In this document: piece after piece, positions 37,403-47,394 of the stretch
Position numbering within the stretch: position 1 is the first letter of the stretch
How the letters are laid out: each line of letters begins with the position of its first letter
Source: Methanotrichaceae archaeon
GTDB taxonomy: Archaea; Halobacteriota; Methanosarcinia; Methanotrichales; Methanotrichaceae
Length of the DNA stretch: 52,265 bases
NCBI GenBank assembly: GCA_013178225.1
Contig: JABLXE010000018.1
Location: 1-52,265 of the forward strand
Direction: 5' to 3'
The notes under the pieces: model-generated
What the model was told of the DNA's origin: nothing
Database searches by the model: none
The model's input: the letters and a program-made list of their open reading frames with translations, nothing else
Position numbers and translations under genes: made by a program

Positions 37403-38359
37403 TTACGCTTCGCCAATAAGCAGCTGATCCACAGTGCACTCTTCCGGTGGTTTATCGATCCGCCTTCTGAGGAACACGGGTGCCCTGAGATGTCCCCTCT
37501 TTGATACTTCCATAGCCTCGACTTCCACCACCAGCTCGGGTTTCAACCATTGCACATCTTTCCGATCAGGAGGATTGAAGAATGGAGTACCTTCTGACAT
37601 CTTGAACTCGAGGGATATCTCTTCCAGCTCCTGCTGCGAGAATCCCGATCCGACCCGTCCCATGTACACCAGTTTCCCCGAGTCATAGGCACCCACCAGC
37701 AAGCTTCCAAAGAAAGGTCCTCTCTGCCCCTGGCCGAGCATGTATCCGCCCACCACCAGATCCAGGGTCAGATGCTTCTTGATCTTGACCCAATCCCGGC
37801 TTCTGACCCCCGGCTGATACGTCGAAGCCAGCCTCTTGGCCATTATGCCCTCCAGGCCTTTCTTAAGGGCGGCTTTGAAGTAAGCCTCTCCTTCGGCCGG
37901 AAGGTAGTCTATTCTTGTGATGAAATCGTTATCCTGAAGCTCATTTTCCAATATAGATTTGCGCTCAATCAGAGGCAGATTCATCAGGCTCTCCGAGCCC
38001 CTATAAAGGATATCGAAGACTATGTAGCTGGCAGGAAGAGCCTTGGAGAGATAATCGATCCGAACGGCCTTTACTTGCTGCTCACGCACTGCCAGAGAGG
38101 AGAAATCCGGTATGCCTTTGGAAAAGACGGCCAGCTCTCCGTCCAGGACGCAGCCTCCCGCGGCCGTCTGCAGGGCACGGGTTATCTCCGGATAACGATG
38201 AGTGATGAGCCTCAGCCTGCGGTTCTGAAGCTCCACGGTGTCATTGGAGATGTGAGCGATGCATCTCGTGCCGTCTATCTTGGGCTCGAATATCCATTCG
38301 TTGCTGGAGAAGACCTTGCCCTGTACGGCCAGCATGGGCTTAATTGGATCCATAATCAT
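37403..38359 (-). CDS. ATP-dependent DNA ligase of the NHEJ (LigD-like) type
   Basis: A 318-residue ligase with nucleotidyltransferase and OB domains. The adenylation motif I is EPKIDGTR with the nucleophile Lys at about residue 27; other motifs are CVLDGELAVF (motif III-like), YIVFDIL, KKGLEGIMAKRLASTYQPGVRSRDWVKIKKH (motifs IV and V) and the OB part beginning VVGGYMLGQGQRGPFFGSLLVG. The layout matches the ligase domain of bacterial LigD without the polymerase and phosphoesterase domains. It overlaps the Ku gene by four bases (ATGA at 38359-38356), which makes a role in non-homologous end joining very likely. Polymerase and phosphoesterase partners are not in this window. Confidence 0.92.
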   Translation of the reverse strand: MIMDPIKPMLAVQGKVFSSNEWIFEPKIDGTRCIAHISNDTVELQNRRLRLITHRYPEITRALQTAAGGCVLDGELAVFSKGIPDFSSLAVREQQVKAVRIDYLSKALPASYIVFDILYRGSESLMNLPLIERKSILENELQDNDFITRIDYLPAEGEAYFKAALKKGLEGIMAKRLASTYQPGVRSRDWVKIKKHLTLDLVVGGYMLGQGQRGPFFGSLLVGAYDSGKLVYMGRVGSGFSQQELEEISLEFKMSEGTPFFNPPDRKDVQWLKPELVVEVEAMEVSKRGHLRAPVFLRRRIDKPPEECTVDQLLIGEA

Positions 38360-39195
38360 TTCAGCGATTCGGCGGTCGCCCTCAGCTCATCCATCAGGTT
38401 CTTGGCCTCAGGTCTGGCAGCCTTCTTCTCCAGCTGAACGACCTCTCCCTTGATCTTGGATTGGACCATTGATTCGATGGTTTCCCGGAAGGAATCCTTG
38501 AACACTGTGATATCGAGGTCTTTGGTGAGCTTCTTCACGATCTCCAGGCCCAGAGATATCTCGTTCTCGGAGGGTTCAGGAAGGTCTTTCAGTATTGCGG
38601 CCTTGCCGGGGTCCAGAACTTCGTCGCTGTATCTCATCAGTGTGGCCACGATGGCCTCCTGATAGTAATGGACCAGGACAATGTGTTCCTTGGACCTCAT
38701 GGTCATCAGCCCTATTGCCGCTTTACCGGTTTTCTCCATGAGCTTTCTCAGTAGGGAATAAGCTCTCTCCGACCTGTCGGGAACCAGGAGCAGCGTGTTT
38801 TCGAAGTAATGGGGATCAGCCTGGAAGAAGTCCACGAACTCCTTCAGATCGATGATATCGCTTGATTCAGGTTTGGCCGCTTCGATCTCTTCGTCGGTGA
38901 AGATCACGTACTTTTTGTGGCCGAGGGCATAGCCGTGGACGATCTCTTTAGTCTGGACCTCCTCTCCTTCCTCGCAATACTTCTTGTAGTGGATGGGAGT
39001 GCCACAGGTCTGGTGGATCATCTTGAAGCTGACTCTTTTGTCCCTGGTAATGGGGATGGCCTTTACCGGGACGTTCACCAGTCCCATGCTCAGGCTGCCC
39101 GACCAGATAGCTTTAGGCAAGATAAGCTCTTCTTCTTGAGGCTCCTCTTTCACTTTCTCTTTCTCGGAGAGCTTCTGTTTCTGGGACTTTTTCAT
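38356..39195 (-). CDS. ku: Ku DNA end-binding protein
   Basis: A 279-residue prokaryotic Ku protein that forms a ring-like homodimer on double-strand breaks. After a charged N-terminal extension (KKSQKQKLSEKEKVKEEPQEEE), the family core reads AIWSGSLSMGLVNVPVKAIPITRDKRVSFKMIHQTCGTPIHYKKYCEEGEEV, GYALGHKKYVIFTDEEIEAAKPESSDIIDLKEFV and PHYFENTLLLVPDRSERAYSLLRKLMEKTGKAAIG. The C-terminal basic tail of some bacterial Ku proteins is short here. It starts the Ku-ligase operon. Ku is rare in archaea (known for example in Methanocella), so this is a notable find and points to transfer or a retained NHEJ system. Confidence 0.95.
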   Translation of the reverse strand: MKKSQKQKLSEKEKVKEEPQEEELILPKAIWSGSLSMGLVNVPVKAIPITRDKRVSFKMIHQTCGTPIHYKKYCEEGEEVQTKEIVHGYALGHKKYVIFTDEEIEAAKPESSDIIDLKEFVDFFQADPHYFENTLLLVPDRSERAYSLLRKLMEKTGKAAIGLMTMRSKEHIVLVHYYQEAIVATLMRYSDEVLDPGKAAILKDLPEPSENEISLGLEIVKKLTKDLDITVFKDSFRETIESMVQSKIKGEVVQLEKKAARPEAKNLMDELRATAESLK

Positions 39196-40600: not shown

Positions 40601-41152
40601 CTATCGCCTGTGTTTTGGGCTAACCTTGAGATAGATGCCCGTGGTAGCCAGAGATGTATGTCCAAGCTGATCCTGGAGATCTCCCACTGGCACGCCACTA
40701 TCAAGGCTCCAGACGGCGAAGCTGTGCCTGAGCAGGTGAGGGTGCACTCGGTGACGGTTCTTGCCTGCTTTATCCTGGCGTTTGACCTCCTGCAGGCCGG
40801 CTCTGGTGGCAATGCCATCGAGAATATTCTGGACCTGTCGAGCGGAGATATGCCCTTCACGATAGCTCGGGAATAGCCAGCCCTTAGAACGCCCTGTTAG
40901 TTGCCTCTGAATGGCCTCGGCAACGCTGGGAAGTAAAACCACTGTGCGAGGCTTATCGAACTTGGCATTAACGGCCTGGATGTGCAGGTAGCCTTTACTG
41001 AAATCTGTATCCTCAGCTTTGATCTGGGTCATTTCACCCACACGGAGGCCAGCTCCGGCCAGCAGAAGGAGGATGCATCGTTCTCTATCATCCTTTGCAG
41101 CCTTTAGCAGAGCGTTGAACTCTTTTGGGGTGAGGAATTTCTCGGGCTCCAT
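40601..41152 (-). CDS. Tyrosine recombinase (integrase), catalytic domain only
   Basis: A 183-residue XerC/D-like recombinase. Catalytic residues are readable: Arg37 in GLRVGEM, a probable beta-hairpin Lys near residue 64-67 (NAKFDKPR), His139 and Arg142 in HPHLLRHSF, His165 in QLGHTSL and the nucleophile Tyr174 in TGIYLK. The protein has only the catalytic domain; the N-terminal SAM-like core-binding domain of typical Xer proteins is absent or reduced to the short EKFLTPKEFNALL segment. Such small integrases occur in archaeal mobile elements. The neighbouring direct repeats suggest that it moved the surrounding 1.6-kb segment. Confidence 0.88.
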   Translation of the reverse strand: MEPEKFLTPKEFNALLKAAKDDRERCILLLLAGAGLRVGEMTQIKAEDTDFSKGYLHIQAVNAKFDKPRTVVLLPSVAEAIQRQLTGRSKGWLFPSYREGHISARQVQNILDGIATRAGLQEVKRQDKAGKNRHRVHPHLLRHSFAVWSLDSGVPVGDLQDQLGHTSLATTGIYLKVSPKHRR

Positions 41153-41181: not shown

Positions 41182-41211
41182 AATTTCTGATTATCATCGT
41201 AATCAGAAATT
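41182..41211. repeat. Perfect 12-bp inverted repeat
   Basis: AATTTCTGATTA (41182-41193) is followed after TCATCG by TAATCAGAAATT (41200-41211). It lies between the recombinase start and the downstream end of the next gene. A second palindrome with the same 11-base arm sits at 41805-41834 and a single arm at 43754-43768. It could be a binding site of the recombinase or of a regulator. Confidence 0.6.
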
Positions 41212-41216
41212 CAATC

Positions 41217-41702
41217 TTAGCTGAAGCCAAATCCTTGCTCGCCTTTACCTTCAGACTTTTTCTCGGCCTTTTCTATTTTTGATTCTGCCTCTAATGATTC
41301 GAGTCTTTCTTCTATTAATTTCTCTGTTGCTAAAACATCTGACATCCCATTCTCTAATTCCACTACCAACACTTCGTTTTCTTCAATAAATTCAACAGAT
41401 TCTGCCTGGAAAAGAGTTTTAAGAAATTTTTGTAAATCGGAAATCAACTCTTTTAGACTCTCTTTAAATGTCTTATAATTTAATATAATTGTGCCCGCAC
41501 TGATAATAATTGAGGTAACCAATGCCATATCAACATAAAGACTTCCTTTATAGAATTTCACAGATTGCACTGTAGTATTTGCACCCAAGACTCGATTAAC
41601 TCTATATTTGAATACGTCTTCAACTATCTGCTTTACGTCTTCAGTTGGCGGTAGCTTTTCTCCATTGATTTTAAACCTGAAAACATGTATAAGTTGATCC
41701 AT
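41217..41702 (-). CDS. Hypothetical membrane-associated protein (161 aa)
   Basis: A 161-residue protein with one predicted membrane segment near residues 55-75 (LYVDMALVTSIIISAGTIILNYKTF), followed by a helical region (FKESLKELISDLQKFLKTLFQ) and a charged, probably coiled-coil C terminus (ATEKLIEERLESLEAESKIEKAEKK) ending in GFGFS. A GAGGT-type site is five to six bases before the ATG. It lies inside the candidate integrative element, upstream of the recombinase on the same strand. No family is recognised; cargo or immunity-type function is possible but unproven. Confidence 0.55.
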   Translation of the reverse strand: MDQLIHVFRFKINGEKLPPTEDVKQIVEDVFKYRVNRVLGANTTVQSVKFYKGSLYVDMALVTSIIISAGTIILNYKTFKESLKELISDLQKFLKTLFQAESVEFIEENEVLVVELENGMSDVLATEKLIEERLESLEAESKIEKAEKKSEGKGEQGFGFS

Positions 41703-41804
41703 CCTTTAACCTCATACTAAATCAGGGACTCCCAATAAATAACTTTCCATATATTTTGCATCAAGTTTGGACCTATTCCGTAATACGGGATATGGAGTCA
41801 GACG

Positions 41805-41834
41805 AATTTCTGATTATGCACCAAATCAGAAATT
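41805..41834. repeat. Perfect 11-bp inverted repeat, same arm as 41182
   Basis: AATTTCTGATT (41805-41815), loop ATGCACCA, AATCAGAAATT (41824-41834). The arm matches the palindrome at 41182 and the single copy at 43754, so three related sites bracket the small membrane gene and the RiPP genes. Confidence 0.6.
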
Positions 41835-42078
41835 GCGATCAATATCGGGAAGTCACTCACCTCTATATAGGCCCGCAGTTAGCAAGGTAGTATATAAGCA
41901 AGCCCACAGAAACAGCATTTGGTGCACCAAGATTTTACAGCCGATTTTGTGAGCCATAGTTGCCTTGGGCATTCTGGAGCAGATATATATCACTAAAAGA
42001 ATGAAAATTGGCATCCCGATCTTCATGAGCTATAAACCATTTCGAATATTATTTCGCAGCTGCAGTCCCGAAATCTGG

Positions 42079-42094
42079 CGCGTAGAATAGGGGC
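42079..42094 (+). repeat. Right 16-bp direct repeat (possible attR)
   Basis: CGCGTAGAATAGGGGC, identical to the repeat at 40485-40500. Together they enclose the tyrosine recombinase and the membrane protein gene. The 40 bases before it also match weakly with the sequence before the left copy. Confidence 0.6.
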
Positions 42095-42329
42095 CTTTGT
42101 AGGGCAGAAAGGTATTTATAATAATATCCATACTCAAAGACGACTCTGGGAATGCAACTGTTGTCTTGCAGGTTGCACGTACTTTTAGATGAATTAGCTA
42201 GTTGACCAATCTATCCTTATAAGTCACCACGTAACAAAGAGAGTATTTTAATAAGTATCTTAAATTCCTATAACTATATACGTTAGAATAAATAAAACAT
42301 ACATTTCTAATAATACAAAGAGGTGAACA

Positions 42330-42563
42330 ATGTTAGCGCTAAGTGAAGACGATATGGTAAAGCTAAGGGATCTTAATGAGACGCTTAACGAACTGCTTGC
42401 ACGTACGAGCGCAGGCACATCCTCAACACAGGGGATTGGTGTCTCCAGGGTAGATCTAAAGGCACGGCAAGCAGGCTGCAGTCAGTGTGAGATGGGCTGC
42501 ACGGGATGCATGGGCTGCTCCAATACTTCAAAGGTTTCTGTCGCTGTCGTTCAGACCGAATAG
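42330..42563 (+). CDS. Cys-rich RiPP precursor peptide
   Basis: A 77-residue peptide directly upstream of a radical SAM peptide maturase. Residues 1-48 look like a leader (MLALSEDDMVKLRDLNETLN, then a Thr/Ser/Gly-rich linker and SRVDLKARQ), and residues 49-68 hold the Cys core GCSQCEMGCTGCMGCSNTSK with cysteines at 50, 53, 57, 60 and 63, partly in a CxxC/GCxGC pattern, followed by a short tail. An AGAGGTG site lies five to seven bases before the ATG. Ribosomally made peptides with multiple Cys beside radical SAM/SPASM enzymes are typically given thioether (sactionine or ranthionine) links. It does not exactly fit the SCIFF or other classes I know, so the product could be new. Confidence 0.8.
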   Translation: MLALSEDDMVKLRDLNETLNELLARTSAGTSSTQGIGVSRVDLKARQAGCSQCEMGCTGCMGCSNTSKVSVAVVQTE

Positions 42564-42612
42564 TTATAACTTGATAGAAAATGTCTAATATTTTTCAGAG
42601 ATCAATGAGACT

Positions 42613-43740
42613 ATGAATCAAGTTCCTCTAATGGTGCAGCTTCACATTACCAATGCCTGCAATCTAAAATGTAGATATTGCTATGAGATTCATAAAGGTA
42701 ACAACTACATGCCATTAGAAGTGGCAAAAGAGGCAATATCGAAGTATATGTCGTTCGATGATGGTTCAGAAAAAGTAATTATTGATTTAATTGGTGGTGA
42801 GCCCCTCATTGCTTTTGATATGATCAAGGATCTAATGCAGTTTGCCTCTGAAGAGGCTAAAAATTGGAAGAAGGATTGCGTCTTCTTCGCCACAACTAAT
42901 GGTACACTCCTCGACGAAGAGAAAAAAAAATGGTTGTTTGAGCATAAGGATAAAATAGTGCTTGGTCTGAGCTTGGATGGGACAAAGACCGCTCACGATT
43001 ATAATCGCTCTGGCTCCTATGATATGGTAGCTAAGCACTTTTCTTTCTTTAGGGATACTTGGCCATCTCAATGGGTCAAAATGACTATTGGACCCGGTTC
43101 TATCGATCAAGTATATGAAGGCATTTTGAATATATATAATAACGGTTTTAGGTGTGCCGCAAACGTGGTTATGGAGGATGTCTGGGGTAATTCAAAAGAA
43201 GAATACCTAAGGGTTTTTGAAAGTCAATTGGAACGCTTAGTTGAGTATTTTTCGAACCACAGAGAACTAGAGCCACCTATATTGATCTGTCTCCCAATAG
43301 AGTCATTAGTTATAATGGAAGACAAGAATAAACCCTGGTGTGGCTCAGGAATCTCAATGGTAGCGATTGATATGGAAGGGATAGAATATCCATGTCACCG
43401 ATTCATCTCGACATCGAATACACGTAAGTATGATCCTAGCTTAATCGCAAAATCTCCACGGAAGATATCTGCATGCGATAATTGCCCTTTTTTATTGGTT
43501 TGTCAGAGTTGTAATGCCAATAATTGGGAGACCAATAGCCATCCTAATTCTAGAACGAGTTTCCACTGTGAGTTTACTAAGCTTCAGATCCTTGCCACGG
43601 TCAGGCTTAAGTTTAACTATATATTACAAGAACTATCTCAGATGCCATCATCCCTTGAAGATTCAGAAAGGCTAAAGGATATATTGGTTACTACACAGGC
43701 AATCTCATACGTATACTCCCACAGAGATTCCTTAACTTGA
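42613..43740 (+). CDS. Radical SAM/SPASM peptide maturase
   Basis: A 375-residue enzyme of the radical SAM superfamily. The [4Fe-4S] cluster motif CNLKCRYC gives Cys16, Cys20 and Cys23, preceded by QLHITNA, and followed by GGEP (LIGGEPL) for SAM binding. The C-terminal SPASM-like region has PWCGSG (about 243), GIEYPCHRF (about 261) and CDNCPFLLVCQSCNANNW (about 287-303) then SFHCEF, enough cysteines for two auxiliary clusters. These enzymes install thioether, C-C or similar cross-links in precursor peptides; the Cys-rich peptide 49 bases upstream is the obvious substrate. No transporter or protease follows. AT-rich composition suggests transfer. Confidence 0.88.
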   Translation: MNQVPLMVQLHITNACNLKCRYCYEIHKGNNYMPLEVAKEAISKYMSFDDGSEKVIIDLIGGEPLIAFDMIKDLMQFASEEAKNWKKDCVFFATTNGTLLDEEKKKWLFEHKDKIVLGLSLDGTKTAHDYNRSGSYDMVAKHFSFFRDTWPSQWVKMTIGPGSIDQVYEGILNIYNNGFRCAANVVMEDVWGNSKEEYLRVFESQLERLVEYFSNHRELEPPILICLPIESLVIMEDKNKPWCGSGISMVAIDMEGIEYPCHRFISTSNTRKYDPSLIAKSPRKISACDNCPFLLVCQSCNANNWETNSHPNSRTSFHCEFTKLQILATVRLKFNYILQELSQMPSSLEDSERLKDILVTTQAISYVYSHRDSLT

Positions 43741-43753
43741 TGCTATTGACAGT

Positions 43754-43768
43754 AATTTCTGATTATGC
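43754..43768 (+). repeat. Single copy of the AATTTCTGATTATGC arm
   Basis: AATTTCTGATTATGC occurs 13 bases after the stop of the maturase gene and matches the left arm and first loop bases of the palindrome at 41805. It has no inverted partner here. It marks the end of the AT-rich RiPP region. Confidence 0.5.
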
Positions 43769-44024: not shown

Positions 44025-44432
44025 ATGTTCCCCAGCACCTTCGACGTGGTTCCCAAGCGCAAACGGATTATCATGTTCAAGGTGGGTAAGGTCTGGATCT
44101 TCAAGCACTTCTTCGAGGACAAGGAGATCTTCCGCCAGCTGGCCGACCACTATGATAAGGACATCTACCGCTTTTCATTCAAGACCTTTGCCGAGAGAAA
44201 TCAGGCCATCAAGCTGCTGGAGAGGCGCGGCTTAGATGTGGACCTGGTGGAGGACCTGAAGGGCTACGTCGTCAAGCTGGACCGGCGCAGCAAATATGCC
44301 TCCATCCTGAAGAACTCCGTGGCCCACATCGAGACTCCCGAGCTGCGAATCTTCCTCATGAAGGACCTGGCCGCGGTGGAGGAGGCGGTGAGGATGGGGG
44401 CGAAGGTGGTTGAGGTGGATGTGAAGTTCTAG
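44025..44432 (+). CDS. Hypothetical protein (135 aa)
   Basis: A 135-residue basic protein (begins MFPSTFDVVPKRKRIIMFKV; later FAERNQAIKLLERRGLDVDLVEDLKGYVVKLDRRSKYASILKNSVAHIETPE). A GGAG site is eight bases before the ATG; a longer frame starting at 43920 runs through the G-rich tract and is unlikely to be coding. Helix/strand alternation suggests a small alpha/beta domain, but I recognise no family. Its 3' end overlaps that of the opposite-strand 88-aa gene by four bases. Confidence 0.55.
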   Translation: MFPSTFDVVPKRKRIIMFKVGKVWIFKHFFEDKEIFRQLADHYDKDIYRFSFKTFAERNQAIKLLERRGLDVDLVEDLKGYVVKLDRRSKYASILKNSVAHIETPELRIFLMKDLAAVEEAVRMGAKVVEVDVKF

Positions 44433-45092: not shown

Positions 45093-45845
45093 ATGGAGAT
45101 ACTATCTGTAGCGAACCAGAAGGGTGGCTGCGGGAAAACGACCACCGCCGTCAACCTCTCCGCCTATCTCGCTCAGAAAGGTAAGCGCACACTTTTGATA
45201 GACTTGGATCCCCAGGGAGCTGCCACTACCAGCCTGGGCGTGAAGAAGAGGACACTGGAGAGGACTATCTATAACGTCATGGTCGACGACCTGGGATTGG
45301 CCGATGTTGTCGTGCCTGATGTGGCCCCCAGCCTTGACATCGCCCCAGCCAACATGAACCTCTCGGCCGCAGAGCAGGGGTTGGTCAATCAGCCGGGAAG
45401 AGAGACCATCATCAAGATGAAGCTGAAGGCGCTCAACGGCTACGATTATGTCCTGATCGATACCCCACCGAGTTTAGGAATACTCACTTTGAACTCCCTC
45501 GTAGCTTGCAATACCCTGATCATCCCGGTGCAGACCGAGTACTTCGCCATGGAGGGCATGAGCCAGCTCTTGAAGATCATCAAGATGGTGGAGGAGAGGC
45601 TGCTTGGCAGCAGCATAAAACGCCGCTATCTTCTGACCATGTACGACGCCCGGACCAATCTGAGCAAGGAAGTGGCCGAACAGGTGAGGGAGCATTTCCA
45701 AGACCAGGTTTTCAAGACCGTTATACCCAGGAGCGTCAAACTGGCTGAGGCCCCCAGCCATGGCAAGCCCATCTCTCTGCACGAGCCCGACTCTCCCGGA
45801 GCCAAGGCCTACGAGCAGCTGGCAGCGGAGGTAATGGGACAATGA
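45093..45845 (+). CDS. parA: ParA/Soj-type partition ATPase
   Basis: A 250-residue deviant Walker-type ATPase. Motifs: KGGCGKTT (residues 10-17, the deviant Walker A), TLLIDLDPQGAAT (Walker A'), and YDYVLIDTPPSLGILTLNSLVA (Walker B). The C-terminal part contains PVQTEYFAMEGMSQLLKII and VFKTVIPRSVKLAEAPSHGKPI. Such ATPases move DNA or protein cargo by forming ATP-dependent gradients on the nucleoid. There is no N-terminal DNA-binding domain, so it is of the chromosomal/short type. The stop overlaps the next gene by four bases (ATGA), the usual parAB coupling. It probably comes from an integrated plasmid or is a chromosome partition gene. Confidence 0.94.
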   Translation: MEILSVANQKGGCGKTTTAVNLSAYLAQKGKRTLLIDLDPQGAATTSLGVKKRTLERTIYNVMVDDLGLADVVVPDVAPSLDIAPANMNLSAAEQGLVNQPGRETIIKMKLKALNGYDYVLIDTPPSLGILTLNSLVACNTLIIPVQTEYFAMEGMSQLLKIIKMVEERLLGSSIKRRYLLTMYDARTNLSKEVAEQVREHFQDQVFKTVIPRSVKLAEAPSHGKPISLHEPDSPGAKAYEQLAAEVMGQ

Positions 45846-47394
45846 CCAAGAAGGCCCTTGGGAAAACAGCCGATGACCTGTTCTCAGAGGAGTCCGATAA
45901 CTGGGGCGACCTGAACGGCTTAAGCTCCCAATTAATAGTTAAGACTCAAGCCTCTGAGGTGATAACTCCTAAGTCTGAGGTTATGACTGAAGAGTCCAGA
46001 GTCTTAAGTGAAGAAGGCAGAGAGATGGACTCGGAAGTTAAGACTCAAGCCTCTGAGGTGATAACTCCTAAGTCTGAGGTTATGACTGAAGAGTCCAGAG
46101 TCTTAAGTGAAGAGGACAGAGAGATAGACTCTGGAGTTAAGACTCAAGCTTCTGAAGTGATAACTCCTAAGTCGGAGGTTAAGACTGAAGAGTTTAGAGT
46201 CTTAAGTGAAGAGGACAGAGAGATAGACTCTGGAGTTAAGACTCAAGCTTCTGAAGTGATAACTCCTAAGTCGGAGGTTAAGACTGAAGAGTTTAAGTCT
46301 TAAGTGAAGAGGACAGAGAGATAGACTCTGGAGTTAAGACTCAAGCTTCTGAAGTGATAACTCCTAAGTCGGAGGTTAAGACTGAAGAGTTTAGAGTCTT
46401 AAGTGAAGAGGACAGAGAGATGAACTCTGGAGTTAAGACTGAATCCTCTGAAATGATAACTCCAAAGTCGGAGGTTAAGACTGAAGAGTCCAGAGTCTTA
46501 AGTGAAGAGGACAGAGAGATGAACTCTGGAGTTAAGACTGACACCTCTGAAATGATAACTCCAAAGTCTGAGGTTAAGACTGAAGAGTCCAGAGTCTTAA
46601 GTGAAGAGGACAGAGAGATGAACTCTGGAGTTAAGACTGACACCTCCGAAGTGATAACTCCAAAGTCAGAAGTTAAGACTGAAGAGTTTAGAGTCTTAAA
46701 TGAAGAGGGCAGAGAGATGGACTCTGGAGTTAAGACTGAAGCTTCTGAAGTGATAACTCCAAAGTCAGAGGTTAAGACTGAAGAGTCCAGAGTCTTAAGT
46801 GAAAAGAATGATATCAAACCGAGCACCATAAGCGCCGGAAACTCCAAACTCAATGCAGAATCCAAAAAGGGAAGATCAGCCAGACCTAAGGCCAGAAGCA
46901 GAAAAGAGCAACTAAAAATCTCAGACATCGACATGGACCTGATGGAATCTATCGCAGAGGAGGCCAGAACCAAGGCCAGAATAGGCACATATTCTACCAT
47001 CTCTCTGGCCGTCCTGAAGTACATGAAAAAGACCGTGCCAGAGTACTCCATAAGCGACGACGCCAGGCTGCTGCTTGAAGACGGAGTTAATTCAAAATAC
47101 CCCAAGCTCACCGAGAATCTATCTCTGGAAAAAGGGGTGCTACGATCTCAAGCGAGGGACCTGGACGGCAGAGATTACGACAAAGAGATGATCGAACGAG
47201 TCGCTGCAGAGGCAAGAGACAACCCTAAGATCACGGTGTGGTCTCCGTATGCCTATGCGATCTTCAAATATCTGCGCAAGACCGTGCCCGAATTCTCCAT
47301 CAGCATGGAGGCCAGAGTGCTGCTGGAAGAGGCTGTGGCCCGAAAGTACCCGAACCTGTTTGAAGAGATAAATACCGCATTGAAGTCCGTCTGA
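45842..47394 (+). pseudogene. ParB-like partner with nine 33-aa repeats, interrupted by a 1-base deletion
   Basis: The gene overlaps parA by four bases and takes the parB position. After a short N terminus (MTKKALGKTADDLFSEES) come nine repeats of 33 residues like VKTQASEVITPKSEVKTEE[S/F]RVLSEEDREMDSG, and then a C-terminal duplicated domain: MDLMESIAEEARTKARIGTYSTISLAVLKYMKKTVPEYSI and KEMIERVAAEARDNPKITVWSPYAYAIFKYLRKTVPEFSI, which may be a DNA-binding helical fold. The fourth repeat lacks one base (GAGTTTAAGTC for GAGTTTAGAGTC at about 46295), giving a stop at 46303. Restoring it yields 517 residues. I see no HTH of standard ParB. Slippage within the repeats could switch the gene on and off. 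Confidence 0.7.
45938..46800 (+). repeat. Nine tandem 99-bp repeats within coding sequence
   Basis: Units start at 45938, 46037, 46136, 46235, 46333, 46432, 46531, 46630 and 46729; spacing is 99 bases except 98 after the fourth unit. Most units contain TTAAGACT, eleven bases, AGTCTTAA, an inverted repeat, plus a second TTAAGACT at the unit start and an ACTCC[T/A]AAGTC element. Nine copies with few changes suggest recent duplication or selection for the DNA motifs. Confidence 0.92.

Follow-up and report, generated by a model that had tools for sequence, protein, structure and literature searches.

Organization of the locus

In this study, we analyzed a window of 52,265 nucleotides (the whole stretch of DNA presented above) from a methanogen of the Methanotrichaceae with a genome of 2.98 Mb. 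A gene for a Cys-rich putative precursor peptide is followed, about fifty bases past its stop codon, by the gene of a radical SAM/SPASM maturase, and a recombinase gene, two palindromic repeats and an orphan ORF lie to the left of this pair (Table 1).

Table 1. Features at and beside the two-gene unit, in positions of the window
Feature	Position	Strand	Basis or remark
183-aa tyrosine recombinase consisting solely of a XerA-like catalytic domain	40601..41152	-	Phage_integrase E=9.6e-33
Perfect palindromic repeat AATTTCTGATT-N8-AATCAGAAATT	41182..41211	.	Candidate recombination site
Orphan ORF, 161 aa, one hydrophobic segment	41217-41702	-	Between the two palindromes
Second perfect palindrome, preceding the RiPP unit	41805..41834	.	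Putative function
Precursor peptide, 77 aa	42330..42563	+	ORF with start ATG at 42330, stop codon at 42561-42563 and strong Shine-Dalgarno sequence (gaggtgaac-aATG)
Radical SAM/SPASM maturase, 375 aa	42613..43740	+	Pfam/NCBIfam, tree clade, AlphaFold model
Half repeat copy (AATTTCTGATTATGC), just past the maturase stop	43754..43768	.	Putative function

The peptide consists of a leader of about residues 1-48, the N-terminus of which resembles an amphipathic helix, and a core (GCSQCEMGCTGCMGCSNTSK...) with five Cys at positions 50, 53, 57, 60 and 63 (gaps 2,3,2,2; CxxCxxxCxxCxxC). Five Cys per 14 residues were found in no other of the 342 ORFs of at least 40 aa in the window; 0.26 short ORFs of this kind were expected from residue shuffling, so the Cys density by itself is no more than suggestive, and it is the comparison with other loci that decides.

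In the maturase, the motif CNLKCRYC at residues 16-23 belongs to a Radical_SAM domain (Pfam, E=3.4e-12). It is preceded by 15 aa, leaving no N-terminal extension of the size of an RRE. The seven C-terminal Cys (243, 261, 288, 291, 297, 300 and 319) are invariant or nearly so across the family described below and make up a set of the SPASM type (C-X12-G-X4-C ... C-X2-C-X5-C-X2-C ... C). The enzyme thereby combines the CxxxCxxC core with the SPASM-type auxiliary Cys that serve as the general criterion for radical SAM/SPASM enzymes of RiPP pathways. An earlier sequence-only reading had described both genes as a RiPP locus, and its coordinates and Cys positions for peptide (C50, C53, C57, C60, C63) and enzyme (C16, C20, C23 and many C-terminal Cys) proved exact.

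Comparison of the maturase with known enzymes

The highest NCBIfam scores of the maturase were those for the PapB-type model NF047865 (171.8 bits; cutoff 340) and the CXXX-repeat model TIGR04115 (160.4 bits; cutoff 350), followed by models for SCIFF, nif11 and quinohemoprotein maturases, all far under cutoff. On score, identity with SCIFF maturases (TIGR03974; 111.6 bits vs cutoff 425), anaerobic sulfatase maturases (TIGR03942; 63.6 bits vs cutoff 349.45) and viperins (PADLOC pVip, 54.6 bits) was ruled out. The AlphaFold model (pLDDT 87.5), in which the barrel begins directly at the start of the protein, was matched best in the PDB by CteB (5WHY; E=3e-20, TMq 0.71), then by sulfatase maturases and by ChlB, which was solved with its leader peptide.

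CteB (PDB 5WGG/5WHY), the closest solved structure, is a thioether-forming SCIFF enzyme, but in enzymes of this type CxxxCxxC is preceded by about 100 aa (RRE) and the auxiliary Cys follow the pattern CX2CX5CX3C, compared to 15 aa and CX2CX5CX2C here, and SCIFF peptides contain six Cys instead of five. The earlier statement that the Cys spacing is unlike SCIFF agrees with the score and with the short N-terminus of the maturase. Sulfatase maturases (PDB 4K36) share the fold, the SPASM region and the absence of an RRE, whereas their target is a sulfatase and not an adjacent Cys peptide; the sequence-only reading had named grouping with sulfatase activators as the case that would speak against it, and the maturase groups elsewhere. 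PapB (freyrasin) is likewise a radical SAM/SPASM enzyme with a Cys-rich target and gave the top score, which is nevertheless under its cutoff. The PapB target uses Cys-X3-Asp/Glu (PMC9413430), whereas PapB-type acceptors are scarce in the window core, since it contains no Asp, hence no CX3D, and a single CX3E (C50-E54).

The CXXX-repeat systems (TIGR04115/TIGR04119; targets TIGR04117/TIGR04114) have the same CX2CX5CX2C auxiliary Cys, also lack an N-terminus of RRE size (34 aa in Anaerococcus, L050) and act on Cys-repeat targets, comparable to the mostly CxxxC cores of the window family. However, the TIGR04119 CXXX_matur domain was not matched in the window maturase, which ends after SPASM, whereas L050 has both domains, and the window core lacks tandem CXXX, although most bacterial relatives do have CxxxC. 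The system would function in the manner of a ranthipeptide/CXXX-repeat RiPP. Since the locus departs from TIGR04115 in score, partner domain and repeat spacing, from PapB in score and from SCIFF in score, RRE and the six Cys, it was set as a variant of the radical SAM/SPASM Cys-rich RiPPs.

Maturase family and phylogeny

No relatives were detected when genome and viral contigs were scanned with a single sequence, and a close homologue of the peptide-enzyme pair was not found. A plasmid search yielded a Phocaeicola homologue of the maturase (35%), and an alignment of the two sequences was then used as query. In this way, genomes yielded some 30 full-length homologues (28-38%) from bacteria of many anaerobic phyla, while no members of the window family were obtained from viral contigs.

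In a maximum-likelihood tree, the window family forms a single clade (support 100/99) in which the window maturase pairs with L059 from Aminicenantes (97/95), and the TIGR04115 maturases (L050, L056) are the sister group of this clade (99/97). The viral-contig members join the TIGR04115 side of the tree and none the side of the window. On two IMG/VR contigs (L191 and L208, 3830-5944), a maturase of the TIGR04115 side is followed by a 130-aa CXXX-repeat peptide, i.e. RiPP-type genes occur on putative viruses.

All scanned clade members match both the PapB and the TIGR04115 models below the cutoffs; the best PapB-model score is that of the window maturase (E 2.1e-50), the best TIGR04115 score that of L059 (E 1.2e-47, 163.1 bits). 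The number of residues before CxxxCxxC, counted from the upstream stop codon, is mostly 15-60 in the family (outliers 78 and 106) vs about 100-140 in SCIFF-type controls, so that most clade enzymes have no room for an RRE. The CX2CX5CX2C pattern of the SPASM region is common to the window family and TIGR04115, while SCIFF-type enzymes have CX2CX5CX3C. Judged by these sequence features, the clade is a coherent and widespread group of maturases that curated models miss.

Cys peptides next to family maturases

A short ORF with a Cys motif was found on the same strand within 800 bp of the maturase in 26 of the 30 family loci, as expected by the sequence-only reading, which had asked for Cys peptides conserved beside homologues with a variable rest; identity to the window peptide is 9-33%. 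Such ORFs made up 34/201 of the near same-strand ORFs vs 7/1686 of the distant or antisense ones, an approximately 40-fold and still large effect, for which the Fisher p value of 7e-28 is optimistic because the rule was set post hoc after inspection of the peptides, some loci are near-relatives and two matches (L066, L077) are zinc-ribbon-like. Together, the position of the enzyme in a clade of peptide maturases and this pairing support the RiPP interpretation.

The family leaders mostly comprise 30-40 residues, often start with MKI or ML and show an amphipathic pattern. The cores contain 3-16 Cys, with CxxxC in 125 of 164 consecutive spacings and a range of 0-11 residues. Apart from Cys, which alone among the core residues is nearly invariant, just Gly at position +2 after Cys, often as CxG, is clearly enriched (0.47 vs background 0.29). 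Weak matches to TIGR04117 (CXXX radical SAM target) were obtained for 11 of 28 family precursors. With its gaps of 2,3,2,2 the window core is a compact variant, and compact cores also occur in L064, L072, L075 and L086; the cores most similar to GCSQCEMGCTG of the window are GCSFCGLGCEG (L075), GCSMCGLGCSG (L086) and GCFGCGLGCAG (L072). The Aminicenantes locus has the gene order of the window (Shine-Dalgarno sequence, precursor, radical SAM enzyme), and its precursor carries seven Cys, mostly as CxxxC, behind a AGGAGGTG site.

The peptide might instead bind a metal or Fe-S cluster, or form disulfides, with the maturase acting on another target, as it is rich in CxxC, comes from an anaerobic archaeon and has the zinc-ribbon-like family neighbors in L066 and L077 as counterparts. 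We regard this as very improbable, since Pfam and NCBIfam give no match of the peptide to a metal-binding family, such peptides co-occur with the maturase clade in several phyla, and a spacing of 0-11 residues is unlike a fixed metal site.

Proposed modification of the peptide

Taken together, we consider it fairly likely that the genes form a minimal two-gene RiPP locus of bacterial origin, in which an RRE-free maturase gives a thioether-linked peptide. The peptide is the predicted substrate of the maturase, and we infer that its leader is recognized without an RRE. Ribosomally made, the 77-aa precursor would dock by its N-terminal leader straight on the radical SAM barrel or the SPASM region. 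The maturase would then cleave SAM reductively, remove a hydrogen from one of the core residues and, with assistance of the auxiliary cluster, couple the same carbon to a core Cys sulfur. The product would carry up to five sulfur-to-carbon thioether links in the GCSQCEMGCTGCMGC core (-2 Da each), while leader removal and export, if any, would proceed via unlinked host proteins.

By analogy with PapB and CteB, thioether formation with -2 Da per link is predicted as the most likely chemistry; PapB makes links from Cys-S to Cbeta or Cgamma, each with -2 Da (PMC9413430). Other radical chemistry than thioether coupling is possible. The same pair of genes could bring about C-C or Cys-Cys coupling, epimerization or another modification of the core, given that related SPASM enzymes are known for cyclophanes, epimers and further kinds of link (NCBIfam model names), that the Cys/Gly/Ser-rich family cores have no constant acceptor besides the Gly enrichment at +2, and that the auxiliary cluster differs from the CteB type. 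With Cys as the sole near-invariant core residue and thioether-forming enzymes, PapB and CteB, as the nearest characterized relatives, such chemistry appears unlikely. A bolder proposal, which we hold to be doubtful yet worth naming, starts from the CX2CX5CX2C geometry and the Cys/Gly cores: the RRE-less clade would be a separate RiPP class with an undescribed link type, e.g. ladders from Cys sulfur to the Gly alpha-carbon, and the methanogen product would stay intracellular and be encoded on a recombinase-type cassette.

Archaeal clusters of the ranthipeptide and sactipeptide type, as well as radical SAM RiPPs of methanogens, have been predicted by genome mining (PMC12144867), and the presence of a RiPP in archaea is thus nothing new in itself. 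In the literature consulted, no characterized methanogen radical SAM RiPPs were found, nor anything on TIGR04115/CXXX repeats or linking Methanothrix to RiPPs and radical SAM enzymes. The present analysis defines the clade together with its peptide partners and adds to it a methanogen member, a minimal unit of two genes. A two-gene system free of an RRE is easily expressed and would allow a direct test of leader recognition and of multi-link chemistry without an RRE.

Origin of the unit and neighboring repeats

In a search of 393 genomes of the same phylum, the window maturase scored 400 bits vs 170 bits for the next match (G257), and no further archaeal members of the clade were found. This next match was rejected as a family member, as it lies outside the clade, is PapB-like (226 bits) and has a different Cys peptide; at this locus (L028, 817-2535), the archaeal maturase is preceded by a 79-aa peptide with five spaced Cys.

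The GC content is 38% over 41182-43768 vs 49% for the whole window, while the precursor gene alone has 51%. Because the archaeal copy stands alone among the 393 genomes and the region is AT-rich, the unit was probably acquired horizontally from bacteria, which is the simplest reading; the nearest known relative is that of Aminicenantes. Of the earlier suggestion of a mobile AT-rich region beside a recombinase, the low GC content and the adjacent recombinase are real and, with the isolated occurrence, support acquisition; movement driven by the recombinase is conjectural. Other genomes of the family contain relatives of the recombinase at 50-56%.

The two palindromic repeats have constant 11-bp arms and a variable 8-bp spacer and are the only perfect copies in the genome; perfect inner-arm copies were found elsewhere at G002:C278:20832 and G031:C144:7088. 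Direct repeats flank the RiPP unit, since positions 43754-43768 are identical to 41805-41819 over 15 nt. However, solitary repeat copies in other genomes of the family stand without a visible cassette, so the palindromes were dismissed as proof of a cassette, which is a lead and not a result. The gene at 44025-44429 was unusable as synteny anchor for an empty site, being multi-copy in the family. An immunity role for the 161-aa orphan is unsupported, as it has no homologue in 148 genomes of the same phylum and no domain.

Export, processing and further genes

A scan of the larger ORFs from 34.9 to 51.7 kb found neither a transporter nor a peptide-processing protease, in line with the sequence-only reading. 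The missing exporter genes nearby permit an intracellular role, which the product may have. The Aminicenantes locus continues past the maturase with genes for a beta-propeller protein and for an ABC exporter. Together with the single archaeal occurrence, the presence of an exporter there could mean that the acquired pair, left with no exporter, protease or partner of its own, is degenerating or inactive in the methanogen. We consider such decay quite improbable: both frames are intact, every radical SAM and SPASM Cys is retained, the precursor has its strong Shine-Dalgarno sequence, and many family loci have no local exporter, since a match to an ABC-transporter model was obtained for just 5 of the 103 flanking proteins that were scanned at family loci.

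Several family loci contain additional enzymes. In Kiritimatiella (L070, 6139-10576), Cys precursors are accompanied by a further radical SAM enzyme, a protease resembling ClpP and an ABC exporter. The Prevotella loci show a second radical SAM enzyme along with genes of the same size; among loci with Cys precursors, such an additional radical SAM enzyme is present in L082 (6193-9660), and same-sized genes are present in L083 (3888-7366). Near the methanogen pair, neither these additional genes nor those of the Aminicenantes locus are present. In L075 (4783-7815), a precursor with GCSFCGLGC and the family maturase are followed by a YcaO protein, possibly for a two-enzyme modification or as a chance-adjacent housekeeping S12 YcaO. 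In Phocaeicola massiliensis (L049, 3062-4843; L065, 6182-7963), an M18 aminopeptidase gene flanked by two near-identical Cys precursors lies downstream of the maturase.

Elsewhere in the window, genes for Ku (Pfam, 3.5e-41) and an ATP-dependent DNA ligase (2.9e-37) adjoin on the minus strand (37403-39195), a bacterial-type end-joining pair in a methanogen. On the plus strand (45093-47394), a gene for a ParA-like ATPase is followed by ORFs that contain 8.8 tandem copies of a 99-bp repeat (94% matches).
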